A DNA stretch of 34,733 nt from a virus, in the IMG/VR virus record IMGVR_UViG_3300042564_000465, positions 1 to 34,733 of that record; one strand, given 5' to 3'. The position numbers were made by a program, and so were the translations under genes. Shown here piece by piece: positions 1,468-30,440 of this stretch. Each line of letters opens with the position of its first letter. The first letter of the stretch is position 1. The notes beneath the pieces were generated by a model. The model was not told the origin of the DNA. It did no database searches and worked only from the letters and a program-made list of their open reading frames with translations.

Positions 1468-2265
1468 ATGAGGCAAGAAAATAGCGCATTCATCAGTTTC
1501 GGTAAAGCAAATAGTGGTTTAATCTTTGACGATTCAGAGAATCAGGTTTATCCAATTAGATACTACAATGTAATTAATGGCGTTGGGGTTACCTTAGATC
1601 CTGAAAGTTCTTACTATGGGTTTGTATATAATGGTAAGGTAACTATCAATAGGAAATGGTTATCACCAATTGAATTAGATCAAGATATGTATTTCAGCTT
1701 ATCAGATGAGTTTACATTTTCTACAAACGCATTAGGTAGTTGTATTCTTATTGAGGTATTAGATAAAGGATATTATAAAGAAAGCGACTATAAAGCATAT
1801 GCAACTTTTGGCGGTCCTATCGAGGCTAAAGGAAGATTGAAATATATTGATGGTTGCACAGATAGTTTATTGATCAGTCCTGTAAAGAAAGGGCAACCTT
1901 GTTTAAATCATTTACATTTCCCTGAAAATATTAATCAAACGCAACATACGCACCCATCACATAGAATTGGTATTGTAGCTTCTGGATATGGAGAATGTAT
2001 TACCCCGTTCGGTAACTTACCTTTATCCCCTGAAATGATATTTGTTATTAAGGCGTGGAACGGAGTTTATTTTGATAAAGGATTAGATGGCGAAATGTAC
2101 GCAATAGGACAACACGCTTTCCAAACATTCGGCGAACCTATGAATGTTATTGCATTCCATCCTGATAGCGACTTCGGTCCTGAAGATGAGTTTCACCCAA
2201 TGATCAATAGAACAATTGTAGATGGTATTTCAGCTAATAAACTTAAAGATATAATGACTAAGTAA
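1468..2265 (+). CDS. Cupin-like protein, function unknown (265 aa)
   Basis: The 265-residue product is rich in short beta-strand-like segments. Around residues 147-165 it carries LNHLHFP and QTQHTHPSHR, then a GYGECITP turn, and GEMYAIGQHAFQTF about 50 residues later. Several closely spaced His residues followed by a later His strand fit a cupin metal site, though I cannot align the two classical cupin motifs with certainty. No signal peptide is present. Its stop codon overlaps the start of the IbrA-like gene by 1 nt (TAATG), implying translational coupling. If it is a metal-dependent cupin, an oxidative or thiol-chemistry role next to a PAPS-reductase-family protein is attractive, but that is inference. 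Confidence 0.6.
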   Translation: MRQENSAFISFGKANSGLIFDDSENQVYPIRYYNVINGVGVTLDPESSYYGFVYNGKVTINRKWLSPIELDQDMYFSLSDEFTFSTNALGSCILIEVLDKGYYKESDYKAYATFGGPIEAKGRLKYIDGCTDSLLISPVKKGQPCLNHLHFPENINQTQHTHPSHRIGIVASGYGECITPFGNLPLSPEMIFVIKAWNGVYFDKGLDGEMYAIGQHAFQTFGEPMNVIAFHPDSDFGPEDEFHPMINRTIVDGISANKLKDIMTK

Positions 2266-3458
2266 TGAGCAAAATTAGAAAAAAGAATTATCAGGAAGAC
2301 AATGTCTTGCAGGCTGCAATAAATAGAATGAGGTACTTGTATGATAGCTTTGACAATGTAGAGGTTGGATTTTCAGGAGGCAAGGATAGTACGGTTATCT
2401 TAAACATTGCGCTTCAGGTTGCAAAGGAGAAAGGAAAACTTCCTGTAATTGCTAATTTCTATGATGAGGAAGCAATCCATCCTACTACGATTGAATATGT
2501 AGAAAGGGTAAGAGATAATCCTGATATTAAACTAAATTGGTTTTGCTTAGAGTTTAAACATAGAAACGCATCTTCCAATGAAGAACCTTATTGGTTCACT
2601 TGGGATAAGGATAAAAAAGATAAATGGGTTCGCGAAATGCCTGAAGGCGCAATCACAGAACATAGCAAATTCTACAAAGGATTATCGTTTCAAGAGTTCA
2701 CTTCGTTAAGAGCAGAAAAGTCAAAGGGTACAACTGTTGATGTAACGGGGGTAAGAACACAGGAAAGTCTAAGACGATTTCAGGCGGTAGCTAAGAAAGT
2801 AAATGATAACTATATTTCGAGGTACGGACATTTTTCTATTGCGCACCCAATATATGATTGGAGTAGTCAGGACGTTTGGAAATTAGTACACGAATGGAAT
2901 ATAGATTACAATAAGACTTACGATATATTTAACCAAACAAAACTAAGCAATAGGTTTTTGACGCAAAGAGTTTGCCCGCCATTTGGCGAAGAACCTTTGA
3001 GGGGTTTATGGATCTATGCAGAGTGCTTCCCTGAATTATGGCATAAGATGCTTAACAGAGTAGAAGGCGTTGCGACCGCTTGGCGTTATGCTAATACAGA
3101 ATTGTATGGCGTTGGCGGGATCGAGAAGCCTGAAGAATTAGCTTGGAAAGAATATCTTAAATATATTGTAGACACATATTCAGGCAAAGAAAAGAATTAT
3201 GTGATCGAGAACATAAACAGATATATTACATATCATAAGGACAGATCAAAGGTAGCTATTGATGATACAGAGGCGTCCGCATTGACAGGGATTTCTTATA
3301 GGTGGCTTTGCAAGATTGCACATAAAGGGGATTTCAAAGGAAGGCAAAAGCCTGATAATGAAAGAACGGCTGCAATGAAAAAAGAGAACCTGACACAAGA
3401 TGAAGCAGTAATGAAATACGGAACAGAAAAGTATAAAAAAGAATACTTTAAAAAATGA
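2265..3458 (+). CDS. IbrA-like PAPS reductase-family protein (DUF3440 type)
   Basis: The 397-residue protein has the PP-loop SGGKDST at residues 37-43, which in this superfamily binds the pyrophosphate of ATP or PAPS and adenylates or reduces substrates. A TSLRAEKSKGT and GVRTQES segment follows, and then RVCPPFGEEPLRGL at about 235-248, typical of the DUF3440/IbrA branch. The C-terminal 100 residues contain a basic helix-turn-helix-like region. IbrA proteins are known as partners of the ParB-like IbrB; an IbrB-like gene lies 537 nt downstream in the same operon. Its own role could be DNA or tRNA sulfur/nucleotide chemistry or regulation. A CysH role in sulfate assimilation is less likely given the phage context and the partner. 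Confidence 0.88.
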   Translation: MSKIRKKNYQEDNVLQAAINRMRYLYDSFDNVEVGFSGGKDSTVILNIALQVAKEKGKLPVIANFYDEEAIHPTTIEYVERVRDNPDIKLNWFCLEFKHRNASSNEEPYWFTWDKDKKDKWVREMPEGAITEHSKFYKGLSFQEFTSLRAEKSKGTTVDVTGVRTQESLRRFQAVAKKVNDNYISRYGHFSIAHPIYDWSSQDVWKLVHEWNIDYNKTYDIFNQTKLSNRFLTQRVCPPFGEEPLRGLWIYAECFPELWHKMLNRVEGVATAWRYANTELYGVGGIEKPEELAWKEYLKYIVDTYSGKEKNYVIENINRYITYHKDRSKVAIDDTEASALTGISYRWLCKIAHKGDFKGRQKPDNERTAAMKKENLTQDEAVMKYGTEKYKKEYFKK

Positions 3459-4021
3459 TAGATCAATACCCTTCCGTAACAAGAATACTCGCTGCTACTA
3501 AACCGCAAGAGGATATTGATGCTTTAGAAAGGTGGCGCAAAAGAGTAGGTTACGCGGAAGCTGAAAGGATTAGCAATGCCGCCCTGCAAAGAGGGAAGAT
3601 GTATGATAATTTTGTAGAGGATTATAGCAATGGCATAGATATTCCTCACGCCCAACTAAAAGAATACCTAAGCCAATTCGATATAATATCAAGAGAGCAA
3701 ACGATATATAATAACGAATTTGGATATAAAGGAAGATATGATTGTATATTTGCAAAGAACGGGATATTAATACTGAATGACTTTAAAGGATCAGGAAGAA
3801 AAAAGTCAAGGGAGTATTTAAAAGATTACCCATTACAGATAGCAGCATACATAAAGGCAATAGAGGAAACAGGCGTGGTTATCAATTGGGGGATGATTTC
3901 AGTAATACTATCGGATCAGATACAGACATTTGTATTTGATCATTGCGAAATAGAAAAATACTTTAGAGAATTTATTACAAGACTAAAAAAATATAATGAT
4001 GCAAAAAATGCCGATTTCTAA
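3455..4021 (+). CDS. PD-(D/E)XK exonuclease, Cas4/MGME1-like
   Basis: The 188-residue protein shows the RecB-like nuclease core. GRYD (Asp96) is followed by LILNDFK at 105-111, giving the Asp and Lys of the active site. LQIAAY at 127-132 is the QxxxY motif typical of Cas4, AddB and MGME1-type 5'-3' exonucleases. The N-terminal SVTRILAATKP and ALQRGKMYDNFVED segments also match the MGME1-like group. It overlaps the IbrA-like gene by 4 nt (ATGA) and the IbrB-like gene by 26 nt. It could be the exonuclease partner of the ERF annealing protein at 28317 for recombination, or an effector of the IbrA/IbrB block; position favours the latter, family habits the former. Confidence 0.88.
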   Translation: MIDQYPSVTRILAATKPQEDIDALERWRKRVGYAEAERISNAALQRGKMYDNFVEDYSNGIDIPHAQLKEYLSQFDIISREQTIYNNEFGYKGRYDCIFAKNGILILNDFKGSGRKKSREYLKDYPLQIAAYIKAIEETGVVINWGMISVILSDQIQTFVFDHCEIEKYFREFITRLKKYNDAKNADF

Positions 4022-4535
4022 CGTAGTATGGTTAGATAGAAACGAACTATCCCCTAATTTATACAATCCTAATAAGGTAGCACCGCCCGAAATGGCTTTG
4101 CTTAAACAAAGTATATTACAGGACGGGTGGCTTTTCCCTATCGTAGTATTTGATAAGACTATCAACATAGAAGGATTGACAGATAACAACGATCTAAATA
4201 AATATACAATCATAGACGGCTTTCATAGATTCACAATGAGCGGTGATAAAGAAATATTTAAAATGACAGATGGCAAAGTCCCTGTTGTTATTCTTAATCC
4301 TGCAAACCCATTAGCGACAACCGTGAGAATGAACAGAGCAAAGGGAACGCACGCCGTACTAAAGATGGGGGACATTGTAAAGAACCAAATAGACAACGGC
4401 AAGCCGATCAGTCAGATAATGCAAGAGTTCGGAATGGAGAAAGAGGAAGTAATTAGATTAGCAAATAGAATGGGTATTCACAAGACAGATATCATAATCG
4501 ATACAGATTGGTCTAATTCTTGGATTCCCCAATAA
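3996..4535 (+). CDS. IbrB-like ParB-domain protein
   Basis: The 179-residue protein has a ParB/Srx-like domain with LSPNLYNPNKVAPPE near residues 18-32, IIDGFHR at 72-78 and RMNRAKGTH at 111-119. The last motif is characteristic of IbrB-type proteins. A helix-turn-helix-like stretch (PISQIMQEFGMEKEEVIRLA) lies at about 137-156 and would allow DNA recognition. Two adjacent ATGs (3996, 3999) are possible starts. In known systems IbrB is encoded with IbrA and affects expression of other genes in E. coli; here the two are separated only by a nuclease gene. It differs clearly from the ParB-like protein at 878, so the two are not a recent duplication. Confidence 0.85.
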   Translation: MMQKMPISNVVWLDRNELSPNLYNPNKVAPPEMALLKQSILQDGWLFPIVVFDKTINIEGLTDNNDLNKYTIIDGFHRFTMSGDKEIFKMTDGKVPVVILNPANPLATTVRMNRAKGTHAVLKMGDIVKNQIDNGKPISQIMQEFGMEKEEVIRLANRMGIHKTDIIIDTDWSNSWIPQ

Positions 4536-29297: not shown

Positions 29298-29717
29298 ATG
29301 GATTATAACAATTTAATACAATGTTACAAAGACCAATTGCAGAGTTTGCGTATGTTTCATAAAGAATTAGTGAAAGCTAAATTGATAACAGACGACATTG
29401 CAATAGGATCATTTCCTACAAGTATCCTTCCGCATAGAATAGTAGAATTAGTTGAGGATGTATTTGACACAAATATTCAGATCAAGAACCGAAGCCAAAG
29501 CGTAATTTTTGGACGTAAAGCGGCGGCATATGTACTGAAGAAATATACTCAATTATCCCTCAATGAAATAGCTAAACAAATAGGCGTTGGTGATCATACA
29601 ACTGTTATCTATAACATAAAAACGGCAGAAAACCTAATGTTTACCGAAAAATGGTATAAAGAAAAAGTTCAGGAAATTGAGAAAGAAATAGAAAGTTTTA
29701 ATAACTTTGTAAAATAA
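29298..29717 (+). CDS. DnaA domain IV-like DNA-binding protein (139 aa)
   Basis: The 139-residue protein contains a DnaA C-terminal domain. VEDVFDTNIQIKNRSQS at about 52-68 is followed by GRKAAAYVLKKYTQLSLNEI and GVGDHTTVIYNIKTAE at about 97-111; the DHTTV motif (99-103) corresponds to the DHSTV that recognises DnaA boxes. The AAA+ ATPase domain is absent, so it can bind origin-like sites but cannot unwind alone. It precedes the kissing-hairpin element and the replication initiator gene, and could act there or compete with host DnaA. Confidence 0.85.
   Translation: MDYNNLIQCYKDQLQSLRMFHKELVKAKLITDDIAIGSFPTSILPHRIVELVEDVFDTNIQIKNRSQSVIFGRKAAAYVLKKYTQLSLNEIAKQIGVGDHTTVIYNIKTAENLMFTEKWYKEKVQEIEKEIESFNNFVK
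29702..29709 (+). promoter_or_regulatory. Promoter-like -7 element before hairpin element
   Basis: TAACTTTG fits TAnnTTTG; TTG at 29677-29679 lies 22 nt upstream. It falls within the last codons of the DnaA-like gene and would start transcription near 29716, just ahead of the two hairpins. A match inside a gene can be chance. Confidence 0.35.
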
Positions 29718-29808
29718 TAAGAAAACGTTATGGTACAACGTAGTTTAAATATATTGGATCAAGGGCGAGCAGGTAGTACCATTACCTGTAAGCCTAAGAT
29801 CCATTTTT
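29716..29808 (+). ncRNA. Candidate structured RNA with complementary hairpin loops
   Basis: Two hairpins lie in the gap before the replication gene. Hairpin 1 is ACGTT-[ATGGTAC]-AACGT (29725-29741). Hairpin 2 (29755-29803) has arms TGGATC-3-GGC-3-CAGGTA pairing with TACCTG-3-GCC-3-GATCCA around the loop GTACCAT (29776-29782). The loops are exact reverse complements over 7 nt, able to form a kissing complex. Five T residues follow. It could be a small RNA, a translational control element for the gene at 29814, a terminator, or a DNA structure at an origin. Confidence 0.55.
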
Positions 29809-29813
29809 AATTT

Positions 29814-30440
29814 ATGTCAAAAGATCCCGCAGTGCTATTTTATACAAGTGATTTTTTAAGTGGAACATTTACAATGACAGACGAGCAAGTCGGTAAATAT
29901 ATCAGGCTTCTATGCCTTCAGCATCAAAAAGGAAAGCTAACCGAAAAGGATATGCTAAGCATATGCAAAGCATATGATAACGAAATATGGGATAAGTTTG
30001 ATCAGGTGGACGGCTTTTTTATAAACGATCGAATGTATAATGAATCCATAAGAAGGTCAAAATTCACAGAAAGTAGACGAAATAACGCTAAATCATTAAA
30101 AAATGATAGCATAAGCGAAGCAAGTGCTAAGCATATGCCTATGCATATGGAAACTGAAACTGAAAATATAACTACAAATAAAGATATATTTATAAAAAGT
30201 ATAGAACCTTTTGTAACTTTATTGGGTGGATCATATCAGGAATTTATAGATTATTGGACGGAACCATCAAAAAGTGGTAAATTACGCTATGAGGCACAAA
30301 AGTTTTTTGATATTAAACGCCGAGTAAATACTTGGATGCAAAATAAAAACAAATATGGAAATTCAAAAAATACTGACGCAACCGCTACAAGTAGGAAACG
30401 AATGGAAGACCTTGCCAATTGGGTTAATAGAGCAGGATGA
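29814..30440 (+). CDS. Replication initiator/primosome-like protein (DUF1376-like, 208 aa)
   Basis: The 208-residue protein has a DUF1376-like N-terminus (VLFYTSDFLSGTFTMTDEQV, then YIRLLCLQHQKGKL). Its C-terminal helical part (YQEFIDYWTEPSKSGKLRYE then FFDIKRRVNTWMQNK) is typical of replication organiser proteins in Bacteroidota phages. In such phages this type precedes a DnaC-like helicase loader, as it does here, and resembles the lambda O/P order. The central low-complexity part contains iteron-like repeats at the DNA level. It starts 10 nt after the hairpin element and overlaps the next gene by 86 nt. Confidence 0.75.
   Translation: MSKDPAVLFYTSDFLSGTFTMTDEQVGKYIRLLCLQHQKGKLTEKDMLSICKAYDNEIWDKFDQVDGFFINDRMYNESIRRSKFTESRRNNAKSLKNDSISEASAKHMPMHMETETENITTNKDIFIKSIEPFVTLLGGSYQEFIDYWTEPSKSGKLRYEAQKFFDIKRRVNTWMQNKNKYGNSKNTDATATSRKRMEDLANWVNRAG
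29953..30149 (+). repeat. Iteron-like repeats within the initiator gene (candidate origin)
   Basis: TGCTAAGCATATGC occurs exactly at 29953-29966 and 30125-30138. Further GCATATG copies lie at 29970-29976 and 30143-30149, spaced 11-12 bp from the first pair. The two 14-mers are read in different frames, so the repeat is not driven by protein sequence. An AT-rich stretch follows at about 30150-30230. Confidence 0.5.

Follow-up and report, generated by a model that had tools for sequence, protein, structure and literature searches.

The window analysed here, the whole 34,733-nt stretch of IMG/VR virus record IMGVR_UViG_3300042564_000465, derives from an uncultured Bacteroidota phage. On its plus strand, a gap of 96 nt (29718-29813) lies between a gene with a DnaA domain IV (PF08299; 29298-29717) and a replication-initiator gene of the lambda-O/DUF1376 type (29814-30440), the latter assigned from domain, PHROG and repeat evidence. 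The upstream gene had been called DnaA-like in a first-pass annotation made from the sequence alone; DnaA domain IV is the only part of DnaA detected in it. The gap is filled by a structured leader, and it measures 93-107 nt in most relatives. Elsewhere in the window, the terminase gene is accompanied by a phosphoadenosine phosphosulfate reductase-like gene (2265-3458) and two ParB-like genes (878-1462 and 3996-4535).

The first-pass annotation had also described the gene downstream of the hairpins as replication-related, which agrees with the matches of its relatives to the PHROGs 'replication initiation O-like' and 'primosomal protein'. The N-terminal domain of the initiator is predicted to be a helix-turn-helix plus wing. 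The structure model has modest confidence (pLDDT 70) and matches viral DUF1376 and replication proteins; a comparison of the model with the PDB returned no match with an E value below 0.001. Repeats centred on CATATG (AAGCATATGC and variants) occur within the gene in all three reading frames, with CATATG starting at 29960, 29971, 30132 and 30144. These repeats form two clusters, at +146/+157 and at about +285 to +342 of the gene, with a spacing of 11-12 nt. Most of the DUF1376-type homologues listed carry 3-6 such repeats at fixed places, against a background of 0-0.3 per 650 nt, and they are absent from DnaD-type initiators. The repeats are probably iterons of a replication origin inside the initiator gene. 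The arrangement resembles that of lambda O, an initiator gene with an internal origin, in that the window gene combines iterons in its frame with O-like PHROG relatives.

Two hairpins with complementary loops

Hairpin 1 (29725-29741, plus strand) was read directly from the sequence and consists of a 5-bp stem, ACGTT (29725-29729) with AACGT (29737-29741), which covaries among relatives, and the loop ATGGTAC (29730-29736). A single-stranded, A/U-rich linker of 13 nt (29742-29754; 13-18 nt in most groups) leads to hairpin 2 (29755-29803), which is supported by sequence, fold and covariation. The 5' arm of hairpin 2 reads TGGATC (29755-29760), aag, GGC (29764-29766), gag and CAGGTA (29770-29775), its loop is GTACCAT (29776-29782), and its 3' arm reads TACCTG (29783-29788), taa, GCC (29792-29794), taa and GATCCA (29798-29803). 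Direct reading confirms that the two 7-nt loops are exactly complementary, as the first-pass annotation had claimed, and the 6-3-3-3-6 layout that it had described for hairpin 2 is exact in the window. This regularity is not a property of the family, since the internal loops change or vanish across groups; two relatives (L206 and L207) have long hairpin 2 stems and group D has a single internal loop. In some groups (L199, L200, L246-L255), the linker contains an additional small hairpin, whose arms vary yet still pair (GGTTAG/CTAACC, GGTTAT/ATAACC). The predicted fold of the gap has an energy of -30.2 kcal/mol (z = -4.8), and none of 200 shuffled sequences was equally stable. An unconstrained fold shrinks the loop of hairpin 2 to 3 nt, whereas covariation backs the form with a 7-nt loop.

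Relatives were collected as IMG/VR matches to both flanking genes and the conserved N-terminal domain, together with a few genome loci, giving 128 distinct upstream regions of homologous genes. In 63 of these, two hairpin loops match through at least 7 consecutive Watson-Crick pairs, compared with 7 of 2560 dinucleotide shuffles, so that the pair of hairpins with complementary loops is far beyond chance. Of the 92 upstream regions whose gap is 75 nt or longer, 80 carry the leader, and at about 20 homologous loci the stretches searched did not contain one. The loop sequences differ between groups and always change jointly: in place of the ATGGTAC/GTACCAT pair of the window's group, others have ATGCGAC/GTCGCAT, GTAGGAT/ATCCTAC, GTGTCCG/CGGACAC, GTAGCCG/CGGCTAC, GTCGCAT/ATGCGAC, ATTGCGG/CCGCAAT and many more. 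In all, at least 25 different 7-nt loop pairs occur at the same place within the same architecture, every one fully Watson-Crick. The main set accounts for 25 of them and additional loci supply further pairs; together they cover all four Watson-Crick types. Because the main set was selected on loop complementarity, the shuffles and a second control, in which non-cognate loops were 39.6% complementary and never paired fully, carry particular weight.

Covariation was counted with the kissing helix, the pairing of 29730-29736 with 29776-29782, entered as a pseudoknot. In a set of 14 leaders (A8), 96.9% of cells were paired and 81 cells were doubly changed, compared with 25 in shuffles. The kissing helix was 100% paired in this set, with double changes in 5 of its 7 pairs, and 4 of the 5 pairs of stem 1 were doubly changed in the same count. 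Pairing in group E reached 98%, and 4 of the 7 pairs of its kissing helix were doubly changed. Some of these statistics come from related sequences and from leaders picked for complementarity, so the counts are not independent. The first-pass annotation had proposed covariation among relatives as a check on its RNA reading, which homologues keeping neither stems nor loop complementarity would have weakened. That outcome did not occur: in dozens of relatives, compensatory changes preserve both features. From this comparison of sequences, we regard the two-hairpin kissing-loop structure as very secure.

Several loci depart from the common arrangement. L245 has lost stem 1 and retained loop complementarity. 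In L168 (near 1021), hairpin 2 is intact and hairpin 1 is swapped for unrelated sequence, either by natural loss or as an assembly chimera. A distant homologue in a Bacteroidia MAG (L187, upstream of 6001) has loops AATAGGG/CCCTATT and a terminator-like hairpin ahead of the same gene type, and could belong to the leader family as a remote member.

Inverted repeats beside an initiator gene with origin-like iterons could in principle work as DNA, for example as a cruciform, an operator or a part of the origin, with no RNA involved. We consider this very improbable. In the stems adjacent to the loops, the sense strand shows 22 G.U pairs against 4 A.C mismatches (binomial p 0.0005), an asymmetry that is the signature of a sense RNA and rules against a cruciform, and complementary loops are the expectation for a folded RNA. 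Furthermore, the CATATG iterons remain in two homologues in which the leader is not adjacent and sits elsewhere (L056 and L148). Given the excess of G.U pairs, the conserved molecule is most likely the sense RNA.

Promoter box, U-run and position in the operon

A putative Bacteroidota sigma-A -7 box, TAACTTTG (29702-29709, plus strand), falls within the upstream gene, at its 3' end, and predicts a transcription start at about 29714. In Flavobacterium psychrophilum, the corresponding TAnnTTTG box extends from -12 to -5 (PMC9723704). The first-pass annotation had noted this promoter-like sequence ahead of the hairpins, and it is backed by the relatives: 67 of 88 leaders have TAnnTTTG no more than 47 nt upstream of loop 1, compared with 3.1% of random positions. 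A sigma-70 scan is not suited to promoters of the Bacteroidota phylum. Stem 1 mostly starts 4-5 nt past the box, which places the predicted 5' end of the RNA at the base of hairpin 1; the window's group has about 11 extra nucleotides. An antisense promoter (CAAAnnTA on the minus strand) was not conserved, its sole bin being at -70 in 13 of 88 leaders.

Hairpin 2 is followed by a U-run and spacer, TTTTTAATTT (29804-29813, plus strand), that ends at the ATG at 29814. The T5 run noted in the first reading is present at 29804-29808, and this is the only one of 48 gene starts examined in the window with a T5 within 16 nt. Between the end of hairpin 2 and the first AUG there are 9-12 nt in 77 of 86 leaders, with the U-run in between, and this spacing is nearly constant even in group E, where the U-run is displaced to 4-6 nt from the stem. 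The stem beside the U-run measures only 5-6 bp in groups A-C before an internal loop interrupts it. Three relatives (L206, L207 and L247) combine a little-interrupted hairpin 2 with a U-run and have the look of intrinsic terminators, in which an unbroken GC-rich stem has a U-run immediately behind it. A simple terminator scan, which does not cover interrupted stems, left hairpin 2 of the window unflagged. A leader peptide was rejected as an explanation: an ATG-initiated ORF of at least 10 codons occurs in 46 of 88 leaders, the ORF is shorter in 31 and an ATG is lacking from 11; in group C the ATG is immediately followed by TAG.

The position of the leader is more constant than its neighbours. 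The first-pass annotation placed the element right after the DnaA-like gene, which is correct for the window; as a meaningful link this appears incidental, for the upstream gene is DnaA-like in some groups only and others have different genes there. Downstream, some relatives (L082-L102 and L356-L392) have the same leader ahead of a different initiator, whose N-terminal domain matches replisome organizer and DnaD-like helicase loader PHROGs. Some of these DnaD-like initiators share the C-terminal part of the window's initiator gene, an apparent swap of the initiator domain beneath a conserved leader (L082, 2575-3000, and L356-L392). At five loci, the leader lies 300-650 nt upstream of the initiator, before an inserted gene that overlaps the initiator start by 1-14 nt. 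The inserted genes encode HNH proteins in L056 (2594-3001) and L148 (2679-3008), a protein that is HNH-like by inspection in L375 (1089-1427), one with a methyltransferase-like look by inspection in L380 (854-1501), and one with a weak GIY-YIG match in L386 (772-1098). Because its position survives a different upstream gene, a different initiator domain and inserted genes, the leader belongs, on this comparative evidence, to the head of the replication-initiation operon.

Candidate mechanisms of control

Building on the promoter box, both stems, the loop-loop pairing, the sense RNA and the operon-head position, which comparison of the relatives establishes, we infer that the leader sets the output of the initiator operon. 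Specifically, we hypothesize that it is a cis-acting kissing-loop element governing this operon, most likely as an attenuator-type switch, and assign this reading a rough probability of 0.55. The sigma-A promoter would start a sense-strand leader RNA of about 90-100 nt just before hairpin 1, both hairpins would form, and their 7-nt loops would pair with each other. Hairpin 2 would end in the U-run about 10 nt ahead of the first start codon, and the kissed or unkissed state would alter the fraction of RNA polymerases halted at hairpin 2 and the U-run. Alternatively or secondarily, the same two states could alter the openness of the start site. Either way, the leader would set the amount of initiator and hence the timing and strength of replication firing.

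We favour control at the level of the operon, since the leader stays where it is when genes are inserted before the initiator. This persistence, combined with the terminator-grade hairpins of several groups, makes attenuation the leading version. Intrinsic termination would be poorly served by the interrupted stems of groups A-C and by the displaced U-run of group E, and the near-constant spacing between hairpin 2 and the AUG would also suit translational control.

The strongest competitor of attenuation is translational control at the first AUG, in which the kissed fold would set ribosome access to the start codon about 10 nt downstream, without termination; we consider it less likely than attenuation. 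Such a switch would resemble the pseudoknot-dependent repZ leader of IncI-alpha plasmids. The spacing of 9-12 nt, kept in group E with its displaced U-run, is in line with it, as is the finding that in Flavobacterium structure close to a start codon reduces translation (PMC6847099). However, where an HNH, GIY-YIG-like or methyltransferase-like gene is inserted, the leader abuts a gene other than the initiator, and translational coupling would be needed; the short overlaps between these genes and the initiator could provide it. A U-run straight after the hairpin is also unlike the A-rich start context favoured in the Bacteroidota phylum.

The geometry of the kiss bears on whether the loops pair within one molecule. 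By a rough A-form estimate, a straight coaxial kiss in cis needs 93 A, and the 13-nt linker of the window's group gives 84-95 A, so that with linkers of 13-16 nt it is estimated to be feasible but tight. Across 30 loop-pair types, the length of stem 1 (3 to about 14) is anticorrelated with that of hairpin 2 (r = -0.68, from related sequences and including a few doubtful automatic parses). This is expected if the total length of the coaxial stack matters, as it would for a length-limited intramolecular contact.

The tight fit in cis leaves some room for an RNA acting in trans, in which the terminated leader would be a small RNA whose loops pair with other copies, forming dimers or inhibiting nascent leaders. 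The outcome could be a copy-dependent shut-off of initiator synthesis or the exclusion of a co-infecting relative. The leader has its own promoter and a U-run end, and fully complementary loops could pair between molecules. In addition, three relatives (L120, L378 and L379) differ only in their loop pairs, with 40 flanking positions of hairpin 2 identical. Overall, however, loops diverge no faster than their flanks (0.091 vs 0.103 per site), the anticorrelation of stem lengths fits an intramolecular contact, and no second target with both loops is present in the window. General diversifying selection on the loops, first hinted at by group E, was rejected on the same equal divergence of loops and flanks. 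Trans action is possible and has no specific support, and we consider it unlikely. Equally doubtful is a sense-strand copy-number governor, in which terminated leaders would build up with genome copies, kiss nascent like leaders and stop initiator synthesis. Were it correct, virulent phages would have plasmid-like RNA control of replication and incompatibility with no antisense RNA and with more than 25 loop specificities.

The many natural loop pairs constitute a ready-made series of compensatory mutations, with which kissing, control of the initiator and action in cis or trans are directly testable in reporters.

Distribution and comparison with known systems

Neither the window nor four other loci (L053, L060, L080 and L090) matched any Rfam 15 family at gathering score, and at loose thresholds the best match had an E value of 1.8, far under its threshold. 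A DNA similarity search of phage records returned short chance matches only. The gene family was found in only 2 of 395 cellular Bacteroidota genomes in each draw, and the phage and plasmid records searched are essentially devoid of it, one faecal phage record being the exception. An RNA model, run without a positive control, had no match in 395 cellular Bacteroidota genomes. The near-absence of the gene family from cellular genomes and phage records suggests that the hosts of the leader are uncultured, mainly virulent phages, and makes a role in lysogenic immunity unlikely. No description of such a leader was found in the open-access literature searched, which is weak evidence of absence. The leader appears to define a family of structured RNAs in Bacteroidota phages that has not been described before. 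Few RNA switches are known to act on the replication initiators of phages, and the covariation of the loop pairs points to a new one acting on phage DNA replication.

The first-pass annotation had likened the element to kissing-loop RNAs in plasmid replication control. The likeness stands in so far as the leader precedes a replication gene and covaries. It is incomplete in that the two loops share a single sense transcript and an antisense promoter is not conserved. In ColE1, RNAI and RNAII have fully complementary 7-nt hairpin loops tied to replication control, but these are on two opposite-strand RNAs, of which RNAII is the primer. Both loops of the phage leader are on the sense strand of one RNA, and a protein initiator is encoded downstream.

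In purine and other kissing-loop riboswitches, too, a loop-loop contact connects a pair of hairpins within the 5' leader. The phage leader differs in having no conserved aptamer core and no closing three-way junction, only its architecture being conserved. A metabolite riboswitch was rejected, as no core sequence is common to the groups and the internal loops are variable and sometimes missing; for want of a conserved core sequence, a ligand aptamer is unlikely as well. The phi29 pRNA is a phage RNA with two mutually complementary loops, but these pair between molecules in the packaging ring, whereas the leader described here heads a replication operon.

Closer parallels are found among plasmid rep leaders. 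The pT181-type transcriptional attenuator of the rep gene (Novick 1989, as cited in PMC10724649) similarly places a terminator-like hairpin, within a structured leader, after the promoter and ahead of the initiator gene. pT181 uses a countertranscript; none was found for the phage leader, in which termination is hypothesized. In the repZ leader of IncI-alpha and other I-complex plasmids (ColIb-P9; Asano and Mizobuchi 1998, cited in PMC10724649), long-range pairing switches expression of the initiator. Two short complementary segments, one of them a hairpin loop, lie in one mRNA ahead of an initiator gene, and the phage element, too, is the leader of an initiator gene in which one loop is complementary to another stretch of the RNA that contains it. 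By contrast, both partners are hairpin loops in the phage leader, and the repZ system has an antisense RNA, whereas the leader of these uncultured phages is sense-only, with no conserved antisense promoter. The likeness is one of architecture, with no sequence similarity claimed, and by this analogy the leader would work most like the plasmid rep leaders that contain a long-range RNA switch.
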